Of a stretch of DNA of 64,000 nucleotides, positions 58,172 through 61,552 are shown in pieces. The translations under genes were made by a program, and so were the position numbers. Below the pieces are notes generated by a model. The model ran no database searches. It saw nothing but the letters and a program-made list of their open reading frames with translations, and was not told the origin of the DNA. The first letter of the stretch is position 1; each line of letters begins with the position of its first letter. The stretch is from an uncultured Pelagibacteraceae bacterium (GTDB lineage: Bacteria > Pseudomonadota > Alphaproteobacteria > Pelagibacterales > Pelagibacteraceae), in NCBI GenBank assembly GCA_902616145.1, contig CACMRM010000005.1:1-64000 (forward strand). The letters are read 5' to 3'.

Positions 58172-59464
58172 ATGAAAAAATACTTAGGATACTTTCTAGC
58201 AGGTACAGCCATTTATTTTGGTTTTGCCGGTCTTGGATACGCTGAGACCACAGTGTCTGCAGAAGTACAATACATTTTTAATACCCTATTATTTTTAATG
58301 TCAGGTTTCTTGGTCATGTGGATGGCCGCAGGTTTTGCAATGTTAGAGTCAGGATTAGTAACATCGAAATCTGTATCAGCAATCTGTGCAAAAAATATAG
58401 GTCTTTATTCAATCGCCGGAGTAATGTTCTGGTTGGTTGGTTACAATTTAGCTTACGGTATCCCAGAAGGCGGATATATAGGTTCATTCACACCATGGAG
58501 TGATAATTCAGCATTAGAGACAGGATATTCTGATGGTTCTGATTGGTTTTTCCAAATGGTGTTCTGTGCAACTACAATGTCAATCGTATCTGGTACGTTA
58601 GCTGAGAGAATTAAGATCTGGCCATTTTTCTTATTTGCCGCAATTTTAACTGGATTTATATATCCAATTTCAATGGGTTGGCAGTGGGGTGGTGGATGGT
58701 TATCAGCTGCTGGATTTTCAGACTTTGCTGGTTCAACATTAGTACATGCTGCAGGTGGTGCTGCCGCTTTAGCAGGTGCAATAGTGTTAGGAGCCAGAAC
58801 TGGAAGGTTTAGTTCTAGCGGCGGAGTCAAAGCCATGACGCCATTTGCTGCATCATCTATTCCGTTAGCAACACTAGGAGTGTTTATACTATGGTTAGGT
58901 TGGTTCGGATTTAATGGTGGATCACAGTTAGCTTCTGGTACGTTAGAAGATGTTTCATCAGTCGCAACAATTTATATCAATACGAACTTAGCTGCAGGTG
59001 GCGGTGTATTAGCTGCTGCAACAGTATCAAGATTGATTGGTGGTAAAACTGACGTAGTAATGATGCTTAACGGAGCGATAGCTGGTTTAGTAGGTATTAC
59101 AGCAGAACCATTAACACCAAGTCCGTTAGCTGCAATTTTTATTGGGGCAATAGCAGGAGTATTAATGTACTTCTCAGTTAAATTATTGTTCAAGATGAAA
59201 ATTGACGACGTAGTTGGCGCCATACCAGCACACTTAGTAGCTGGAGTATGGGGTACATTAGCAGTACCATTAACAAACAGTGATGTTACTTTTGGAGCAC
59301 AATTCCTAGGAACAATCTCAGTAGTGGTATTCGTATTCATAGTCTCGTTTATTGTTTTCCAAATTATTAAAAATACAATTGGATTAAGAATAAGCAAAGA
59401 AGCTGAAAGACTAGGAACTGATAAAGCAGAAGTCGGTGTAATAGCTTACGGTATAAGAGACTAG
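58172..59464 (+). CDS. amtB: Ammonium transporter AmtB
   Basis: Inner-membrane ammonium channel. 430-residue precursor with signal peptide (ending near GYAET) and eleven membrane helices. FLVMWMAAGFAMLESGLV, FFQMVFCATTMSIVSGTLAERI, and GDWFFQ-like and HAAGGAAALAGAIVLGARTGRF blocks with the conserved His are present; the twin His is in VGAIPAHLVAGVWGTLAVP. Leader RBS CAAGGGAG. The C-terminal 30 codons are duplicated at 59844. No glnK lies beside it. Confidence 0.94.
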   Translation: MKKYLGYFLAGTAIYFGFAGLGYAETTVSAEVQYIFNTLLFLMSGFLVMWMAAGFAMLESGLVTSKSVSAICAKNIGLYSIAGVMFWLVGYNLAYGIPEGGYIGSFTPWSDNSALETGYSDGSDWFFQMVFCATTMSIVSGTLAERIKIWPFFLFAAILTGFIYPISMGWQWGGGWLSAAGFSDFAGSTLVHAAGGAAALAGAIVLGARTGRFSSSGGVKAMTPFAASSIPLATLGVFILWLGWFGFNGGSQLASGTLEDVSSVATIYINTNLAAGGGVLAAATVSRLIGGKTDVVMMLNGAIAGLVGITAEPLTPSPLAAIFIGAIAGVLMYFSVKLLFKMKIDDVVGAIPAHLVAGVWGTLAVPLTNSDVTFGAQFLGTISVVVFVFIVSFIVFQIIKNTIGLRISKEAERLGTDKAEVGVIAYGIRD

Positions 59465-59507
59465 AACAATTTAGCTTATCTCCTCCCTCGTTAGTTGGAG
59501 AAATACT

Positions 59508-59541
59508 AAGGCCCGGAGACCCCCTCCGGGCCTTTTTTTTT
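59508..59541 (+). terminator. Rho-independent terminator after amtB
   Basis: AAGGCCCGGA (59508-59517) pairs with TCCGGGCCTT (59525-59534) around GACCCCC (59518-59524), followed by seven more T. Very GC-rich for this genome and clearly the end of amtB. Confidence 0.95.
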
Positions 59542-59843
59542 AGAAAATAAATAGATTTTTTTTCAGGTTGTATTTTTGCTATACTTTATAACCCATCCAA
59601 ATTTAAATTTATAAAAATTTCTCTAAAAGCCGTTATATTTAAACTGATATAGATTTTATTTAGTTTTAGATTTAAAAACTTTAATGGATTTGAGTAATTT
59701 TATACTTGAAAACTTTTAAATCACCTAAAAGAGTATATCGACAATTGCCGCGAAAAATATAGTTAAATTCGCTATATGTTCACTCGTATTCTTTATGTAT
59801 ATTTAGTTTTGCGTTATCTTGGGCTACTTTTACTGCTCTTAAG
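59542..59843. other. 302-base non-coding stretch between amtB and its relic
   Basis: No reading frame of useful length on either strand. It holds a promoter-like TGCTATACT at about 59577, an AAATTTAAATTT palindrome, an ATATAG/CTATAT hairpin near 59760-59785, and one copy of TCGACAATTG (59738-59747) repeated at 59844-59853. The most likely reading is the decayed upstream part of a lost second amtB locus. Confidence 0.45.
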
Positions 59844-59936
59844 TCGACAATTGGTTTAAGAATTAGTAAAGCAGCTGAAAAACTAGGAACTGATAAAGCT
59901 GAGGTAGGTGTTACAGCTTATTCAATAAGAGACTAA
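59844..59936 (+). pseudogene. amtB: 3'-end relic of a second amtB
   Basis: Thirty codons ending in TAA at 59934-59936 read TIGLRISKAAEKLGTDKAEV then GVTAYSIRD, against TIGLRISKEAERLGTDKAEV then GVIAYGIRD at the end of the intact AmtB at 58172. The third-base differences show it diverged as a coding sequence before truncation. There is no start codon or upstream amt sequence left. It is followed by its own terminator. Confidence 0.9.
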
Positions 59937-59947
59937 AATTTAAGTTT

Positions 59948-59985
59948 AAAGGCCCCTAAAACTTCACTCGAATGGGGCCTTTTTA
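59948..59985. terminator. Terminator after the amtB relic
   Basis: AAAGGCCCC (59948-59956) pairs with GGGGCCTTT (59974-59982) across a 17-base loop, with T-run to 59984. It still ends any plus-strand transcript and overlaps the last bases of the minus-strand gene, for which the A-run on its left may also work. Confidence 0.85.
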
Positions 59986-60549
59986 TTCTATTTTTTCAAG
60001 CTGTGTATTAGTAATTTTCCCTGAGCAACTTAAATCTTTAGATTTATTGGGATGAAATATGTTTATATTTATATTCGTATTCTCAATTATTTTCTTTCTT
60101 AAATCATTATCTAAAGAGGAAATGTTTAGAATTTTTTCATTTATTGTATTAAACAACAACTCATCGTTTACTAGATTATTTAGCCTCTGAGAAAAAAGAG
60201 AATATCCGTATTTATTTGTAAATATTTTATTACGAATTTGAATACAGTCCTTTAATTTTGGATAATATTTTTTTGAAGTATATCGTTTTTTATCCATCGT
60301 TGCATTTAAAGAGATTGAGATGATGTTTTTTTTATTAATATTAATGTTGTAATTTAAATCTTGATAAGCTACTCCTGTTATTCCTCCACCTCTAAATACA
60401 TTTGTTAAGTTTTTTTGGATAAATAGATCATATTTTAAAATTAAAAAATCTTTTAATGGCAAAAATCTATTTTTAAAATCCAATTCTGCTGCATTAATAC
60501 TTAATAAAAAAAATGAAAAAAATATAAGTATAATTTTACTAATTTTCAT
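59983..60549 (-). CDS. Secreted protein of unknown function
   Basis: About 188 residues with a signal peptide (MKISKIILIFFSFFLLSINAAE) if started at ATG 60549; the frame can begin two codons earlier at 60555. The mature protein is Asn/Lys/Ile-rich with no recognised motif; two Cys (DCIQI and SCSGK) could pair. It overlaps the end of the glycosyltransferase-like gene, so the two are co-transcribed. Confidence 0.55.
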   Translation of the reverse strand: MKISKIILIFFSFFLLSINAAELDFKNRFLPLKDFLILKYDLFIQKNLTNVFRGGGITGVAYQDLNYNININKKNIISISLNATMDKKRYTSKKYYPKLKDCIQIRNKIFTNKYGYSLFSQRLNNLVNDELLFNTINEKILNISSLDNDLRKKIIENTNININIFHPNKSKDLSCSGKITNTQLEKIE

Positions 60550-61552
60550 TCTCATCCCATAATTTTTTTATATTTACAAAAGGAGAAACGCCAAAAATAG
60601 AATTGATATTTGCACAGTGTACAGCTAAAGATGGCATCGGAGATAAACACGGATGTGTTTTATATATTTCATGAAGGGGTTTTTCCCATGGATCTTCCCA
60701 CTCTATTCCCATTTTTTTTAATTCCTCAAAATTTTTTTTTATTAATCTTGAACTTGTCATAAATGTTACGAGACTTTCTGAAATAAGTCTCCAATGATAT
60801 TTTTCACCTAAATAAATTTTAGTGTTTTCAGTTTTTGAGTACAAATAAGGGTAATCTGAAGGTAATAAAACTAAATCTTGTAAAAAAATTGAGTAAAATT
60901 TTTCATAACTCAATATCATTTCTACGATTGAATTTATTGAGTGCAAATAATCATCTTCAACAAAATAGATAATATCTGCCTCCTCATTTTTTGCTATTAA
61001 AAGTGAATTGTAAAAATTAGCCATATTTGAAAATTTTGCTTTTGAGTATCCATCTTTAATTTTGTGTTTAAATTCACTCAAGTTAATCGATAAAATTTCA
61101 TTCTTTATTACTGACCCTTTTAAAATTTCTTTGAATATTTTTAAATCATTTTCTGGAGAGTTGGTATCAGTTACAACTAACTCAAAATTTATATTTTCAA
61201 ATTTTTCTTTTGCCTTATTAGATGCTTTGACAATTGATCTTAATGTTCTGAAGGTGTACTCATTTTTCTCACAATCAAAAATTCTTCTCTTGTTTTGATC
61301 CATAATTAGCTCAGATGTACAAGTACGAACTATAATTTTAAGTGATTGAACTTTCTTTTTTATATCAATTTTACCTAAAGGAATAGTTATTGATTTTTCC
61401 CCTTGAATACTGAGCATTTCGTTTAAATCTTTTCCCAATGTTGGAGAGCTTAAATTAGACTGGTCAATAATTTCAAAACCTAAAATTCTGCAAATTTTGA
61501 TAAAAATTTTTTTAAATAAGTTGTTTTTTTTCTTATTTTTTATTTTTTTCAT
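60539..61552 (-). CDS. Glycosyltransferase-like protein
   Basis: 337 residues. A basic N-terminus is followed by a GT-A-like nucleotide-sugar fold: strand LKIIVRTCTS, FELVVTDTNSPEND, and the metal-binding YFVEDDYLHS (E199-D201), then a late HxCLSPMPSLAVHC. It lacks membrane segments. A part in surface glycan synthesis is likely, but no sugar can be named. Lys-rich, with base composition like its neighbours, so no sign of recent transfer. Confidence 0.65.
   Translation of the reverse strand: MKKIKNKKKNNLFKKIFIKICRILGFEIIDQSNLSSPTLGKDLNEMLSIQGEKSITIPLGKIDIKKKVQSLKIIVRTCTSELIMDQNKRRIFDCEKNEYTFRTLRSIVKASNKAKEKFENINFELVVTDTNSPENDLKIFKEILKGSVIKNEILSINLSEFKHKIKDGYSKAKFSNMANFYNSLLIAKNEEADIIYFVEDDYLHSINSIVEMILSYEKFYSIFLQDLVLLPSDYPYLYSKTENTKIYLGEKYHWRLISESLVTFMTSSRLIKKNFEELKKMGIEWEDPWEKPLHEIYKTHPCLSPMPSLAVHCANINSIFGVSPFVNIKKLWDENEN

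Follow-up and report, generated by a model that had tools for sequence, protein, structure and literature searches.

Genes and features of the locus

The DNA analysed, referred to as the window, is a 64,000-nucleotide stretch from an uncultured bacterium of the SAR11 group (Pelagibacteraceae). It carries an intact ammonium transporter gene, amt1, which is the first member of an ancestral tandem pair, followed by a terminator hairpin, the relic of a second gene (amt2), a terminator-like hairpin and a convergent gene (Table 1). The window's genome, which is ~94 % complete, contains no further Amt matches besides amt1 and the relic.

Table 1 Features of the amt locus in the window, with strand and basis of assignment
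Feature	Coordinates	Strand	Basis
amt1, intact ammonium transporter gene, 430 aa	58172..59464	+	ORF; Pfam PF00909, E=2e-95
amt1 terminator hairpin	59508..59534	+	terminator scan; fold -23.4 kcal/mol, z=-4.45
Old N-terminal part of relic, start region and leader lost	59546..59735	+	alignments; DNA search (matches in relatives 80-89 % identity); profile matches
TM2-region piece of amt2	59736..59792	+	nhmmer 53 bits; alignments
Junction of 890-bp frameshifting deletion, TCT microhomology	59790..59792	+	junction contexts in ten intact genes; same junction in G031
C-terminal tail of amt2, without usable start codon	59793..59936	+	nhmmer 154 bits; protein match
Terminator-like hairpin 3' of relic, between convergent units	59948..59982	+	fold -16 kcal/mol, z=-3.08
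Convergent neighbour gene, 190 aa, without Pfam match	59983..60555	-	ORF; 79 % DNA identity to G031

A sequence-only reading of the window had described a 30-codon repeat of the amtB tail, with a terminator of its own, as the relic of a second ammonium transporter gene. The repeat is confirmed, as the repeat search pairs 59375-59466 in the amt1 tail with 59847-59938 at the relic (84 % identity over 92 nt), and an independent Pfam Ammonium_transp match lies at 59787-59921 (E=1.2e-4, with a score under the curated cut-off). A terminator-like hairpin does follow the repeat and may still act as a terminator for the convergent genes. The extent is far greater than the 93 bases proposed: in a global alignment to intact amt2 loci, 59546-59936 is collinear with amt2, so that ~390 bases of the gene survive and 59844-59936 represents the last 31 codons of its C-terminal tail. 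The presence of the relic, its identity, its extent and its junction are direct observations.

An amt1 protein search of the window matches 59766-59933 (2.9e-13), and an nhmmer profile of intact amt2 DNA detects both the tail and the upstream TM2 piece, at scores (Table 1) to be set against a best score of -1.2 bits in a control of 2,900 shuffled sequences. The TM2 piece is ~93-97 % identical to intact amt2 genes and lies in a different frame from the tail. The stretch therefore combines homology to Amt (PF00909), disabling lesions (loss of the start and leader region, truncation and a frameshifting deletion) and an orthologue that relatives retain intact at this site. The 84 % identity to the amt1 tail would also be expected if the 3' end of amt1 had been partly duplicated with no second gene involved, an origin that is excluded for practical purposes, as the tail protein has a 45-residue match that is 100 % identical to the intact amt2 of genomes G155 and G132 and only ~70 % identity to amt1 tails, and additional stretches of amt2 precede it in the expected order. 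A dispersed repeat was also considered and rejected, AGGTTGTATTT being single in the window and its longer form having one exact match in the genome.

The tandem pair in related genomes

A DNA match to amt1 (E<=1e-20) was found in 138 of 169 genomes of the genus, and dozens of same-genus genomes carry an intact amt2 at the same site, starting ~157 bp after amt1 and encoding a protein with ~65 % identity to Amt1. The order in these relatives is rseP-HU-amt1-amt2-gt, and the flanks of the site are constant, with rseP, HU and amt1 followed by a convergent 337-aa gene, a rhodanese gene, dsbA and an ABA4-like gene. The amt1 and amt2 proteins of the genus form separate clades in a tree, and the pair is therefore old. 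Among the fetched loci, which are not a random sample and include a few from a sister family, 51 have both genes, 49 have amt1 only and 18 have amt2 only; either member of the pair can be lost. The proposal of an older tandem amt pair, which would have been in doubt if no relative held a second amt gene, is thus borne out by the many relatives with an intact amt2, and the present stretch is a remnant of that gene.

Deletion junction

The junction lies within a TCT microhomology of 3 bp that is common to the junction contexts, and the single-cell genome AG-349-C11 (G031), a relative in the same genus, has its junction at the same place. Nine of ten intact references give a deletion length of 890 bp, the tenth alignment having put the gap elsewhere, and since 890 mod 3 is 2, the frame is shifted at the junction. 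The sequence-only reading had suggested that a 10-base repeat, TCGACAATTG, marks the deletion. The repeat is indeed present at 59738 and 59844, but alignment of the deletion ends placed the scar at the TCT instead. Both copies of TCGACAATTG are inside blocks collinear with intact amt2 (codons STIAAKNI and STIGLRIS), and for this reason neither can be a deletion edge; the exact 10-mer does not occur in both positions in any of 49 intact amt2 genes, and its role as a deletion repeat was rejected.

The junction also bears on the possibility that the locus is an assembly artefact joining unrelated pieces. The window's genome consists of 15 contigs and a mosaic could mimic a chimera, but the junction and the neighbours on both sides recur in G031, an independent genome, which leaves an artefact very improbable.

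Mosaic structure of the relic

The relic is not uniformly diverged. Its N-terminal part, which is common to the window and G031, G164, G130, G096, G142, G167 and G105, is ~56 % identical to intact amt2, and the C-terminal tail is ~89-90 % identical. A neutral remnant of a single age would be expected to diverge evenly along its length, unlike what is seen here. Measured against the relics of G164, G130, G096 and G142 and against several intact genes, 67 of 76 sites to the left of ~59727-59745 agree with the relics, and 16 of 18 beyond it agree with intact amt2 (maximum chi-square 24-51 according to the references chosen, permutation p 0.0005 to 0.0015). The nearest relative therefore changes significantly along the sequence, and this sharp switch joins an old relic, shared among relatives, to a fresher piece of amt2.

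A second discontinuity was found by comparison with G031. In 250-bp intervals, identity between the window and G031 is 88-98 % between 53.4 kb and the relic, falls to 72-84 % on the right of the relic as far as 63.9 kb, and stays near 79 % until ~78 kb. The step, from ~94 % to ~79 %, occurs inside the amt2 tail, with 100 % identity at 59796-59831, 88 % at 59832-59936, 72 % in the terminator region and 79 % in the next gene, the 190-aa convergent gene being the start of the flank that is strongly unlike G031. On contig G000:C5 the low-identity stretch runs from 59832 to ~78 kb, or ~18 kb (loci L144, L245, L246, L248 and L249), which suggests a large exchanged segment with one end inside the relic.

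Within the tail, the window and G031 differ by 11 synonymous and 2 conservative changes. Third positions of the tail differ at 10 of 35, compared with 19 of 285 over all sites in the relic leftward (p=0.0003), and third-position differences between the two genomes are 37-50 % in the genes rightward and 12-16 % in those leftward. The two tails appear to have diverged inside working genes, because the differences are mostly synonymous and the third-position divergence is what such an origin would predict. Homologous recombination with a lineage carrying amt2 is inferred to have supplied the tail and the right flank in one or both of the two lineages. A search for a donor haplotype close to the window, with the sds-type neighbour and an intact amt2, found none, and the nearest tail, that of G169, still differs from the window at 10 of 138 bases.

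The simplest history is a single recent deletion of an intact amt2 that left a uniform neutral remnant, as the sequence-only reading had supposed. The intact amt2 of relatives, the one internal deletion junction and the two well-preserved pieces that flank it all agree with such an event, but the N-terminal part, at ~56 % and common to relatives without the tail, is set apart from the TM2 piece and tail at ~90 %, and the identity between the window and G031 changes within the tail itself. Given these two breaks, one simple deletion is an unlikely account of the locus. The preferred interpretation, to which we assign a probability of about 0.8, is that amt2, the second member of an old tandem pair with amt1, survives at 59546-59936 as a mosaic remnant that no longer functions.

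A tentative sequence of events and exchanges leading to such a mosaic would be as follows. An amt2 gene would have been inactivated and would then have decayed in an ancestor common to several relatives, and the old N-terminal part would be what remains of it. A fresher 3' portion of the gene, together with the DNA flanking it, would next have been acquired from a lineage carrying amt2, by homologous recombination with a join at ~59735, and the 890-bp microhomology deletion would then have taken out most of this fresher part. Later, in the lineage of either the window or G031, a further exchange would have replaced the right flank (~18 kb), its seam falling within the tail of amt2. The good preservation of the tail would thus reflect a recent origin in a functional gene and not selection on the relic. 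As indicated here, relics can be reshuffled by recombination, and the best-preserved piece of a remnant is therefore no guide to the age of the whole.

Absence of a predicted product

The relic most likely makes no product. The ORF list contains no ATG, GTG or TTG opening the frame of the tail, promoter matches at the relic were no more than expected by chance, no Rfam match reached the gathering score, and the relic folds no better than its shuffles. A small RNA was rejected on the last two of these results.

The tail could conceivably be, or form part of, a short peptide under selection, for example one that interferes with Amt trimers or with the regulator PII, and the 11 of 13 synonymous differences in the tail between the window and G031 (P ~1e-5 under neutrality) are what such selection would leave. 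Divergence inside working genes predicts the same third-position pattern, however, and the start-less frame, the frameshift at the junction, promoter matches at chance level and two stops in G031, one in the shared 57-codon frame and another in its TM2 piece, make a peptide very unlikely. The same lesions count against a selected short peptide in a relative, the finding that the sequence-only reading had named as evidence against a relic.

Comparison with known systems

SAR11 bacteria are considered an extreme case of genome streamlining in which pseudogenes are almost absent. The decay seen at this site resembles general bacterial pseudogene decay in its truncation, frameshift, loss of the start region and graded stages among relatives. 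It differs from what is described for SAR11, as P. ubique HTCC1062 has been reported to be without pseudogenes (cited in PMC4285135).

The closest precedent comes from 2007, when HTCC1002 was reported to have lost one of two tandem ammonium transporters (SAR11_0049/0050, in HVR1) that are kept in HTCC1062 (PMC2217521). As here, the organisms are SAR11, the tandem amt genes are divergent and one member is lost in one lineage, but the genes of HTCC1062 and HTCC1002 have autotransporter, sodium symporter and pilin genes as neighbours and are not in the rseP-HU-amt1 setting, and the part of that account available describes a deletion and not a relic or mosaic. The same text notes high recombination in SAR11 and the swapping of HVR2, between the rRNA genes, by homologous recombination (PMC2217521), and recombination has also been described population-wide in SAR11 (PMC7542561). 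The present locus is like these variable-region swaps in showing abrupt identity changes between related lineages with conserved sequence as the seam, and differs from them in that the seam is in the remnant of a lost gene and not in an intact core gene. Presence and absence of tandem amt genes in SAR11 being already published, the locus is a new and well-resolved example of processes already known, in which the less expected element is that the remnant is itself a recombination mosaic.

Stages of amt2 loss among relatives

Taken together, the orthologous loci display transporter loss in graded stages, which run from both genes intact through partial fragments and a heavily decayed relic to clean loss, and in some genomes it is the other paralogue that has been lost. 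In G061 (L160), a C-terminal fragment of amt2 stands by itself ~90-160 bp after amt1, directly past the amt1 terminator and followed by another gene, and N-terminal fragments are present in G070 and G087. Clean loss of amt2 was found in G027, G024, G026, G165 and others, in which the next gene begins ~75-100 bp after amt1. Reciprocal loss, that of amt1, is represented by genomes in which amt2 alone remains and takes the place of amt1, with HU on one side and the convergent gene on the other (G004, G016, G005, G071, G135, G179, G180 and others; L197-L213).

Nine genomes (G126, G171, G163, G088, G028, G085, G022, G125 and G145) have kept only two short blocks that resemble amt2 in sequence and in spacing. 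An origin of this set in amt2 is likely. The most decayed relics (types B-D) did not score above shuffled sequence when tested genome by genome, and are putatively assigned to amt2 from the motifs and spacing in common.

A broader interpretation, which we advance tentatively and hold to be somewhat less probable than not, is that gene loss in SAR11 spreads by homologous recombination, the remnant of one loss event providing the homology seam for exchange of deleted alleles and of the variable DNA next to them, with amt1 and amt2 lost repeatedly and reciprocally at one site and decayed relics missed by annotation. If true, heavily decayed relics that escape annotation would account in part for the lack of pseudogenes reported for SAR11.

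Some further observations were made at these loci. The two blocks of the nine genomes, TTTTTTAGGTTGTATTT and TTGTATTTACAAAT, lie ~110-320 bp after amt1 with a stretch between them that is not conserved, and TTGTATTTACAAAT contains the palindrome TTGTA-TT-TACAA. An extra reverse-strand coding region is present between the relic and the 337-aa gene, ~350-800 bp after amt1, in G142, G164, G130, G096, G167 and G105 (L145-L150) and is absent from the window. In G030 (L051), amt2 is cut after 98 codons near 39.2 kb of contig C1, with unrelated sequence next and the remainder of the gene on another contig, which is either a misassembly or a real break.
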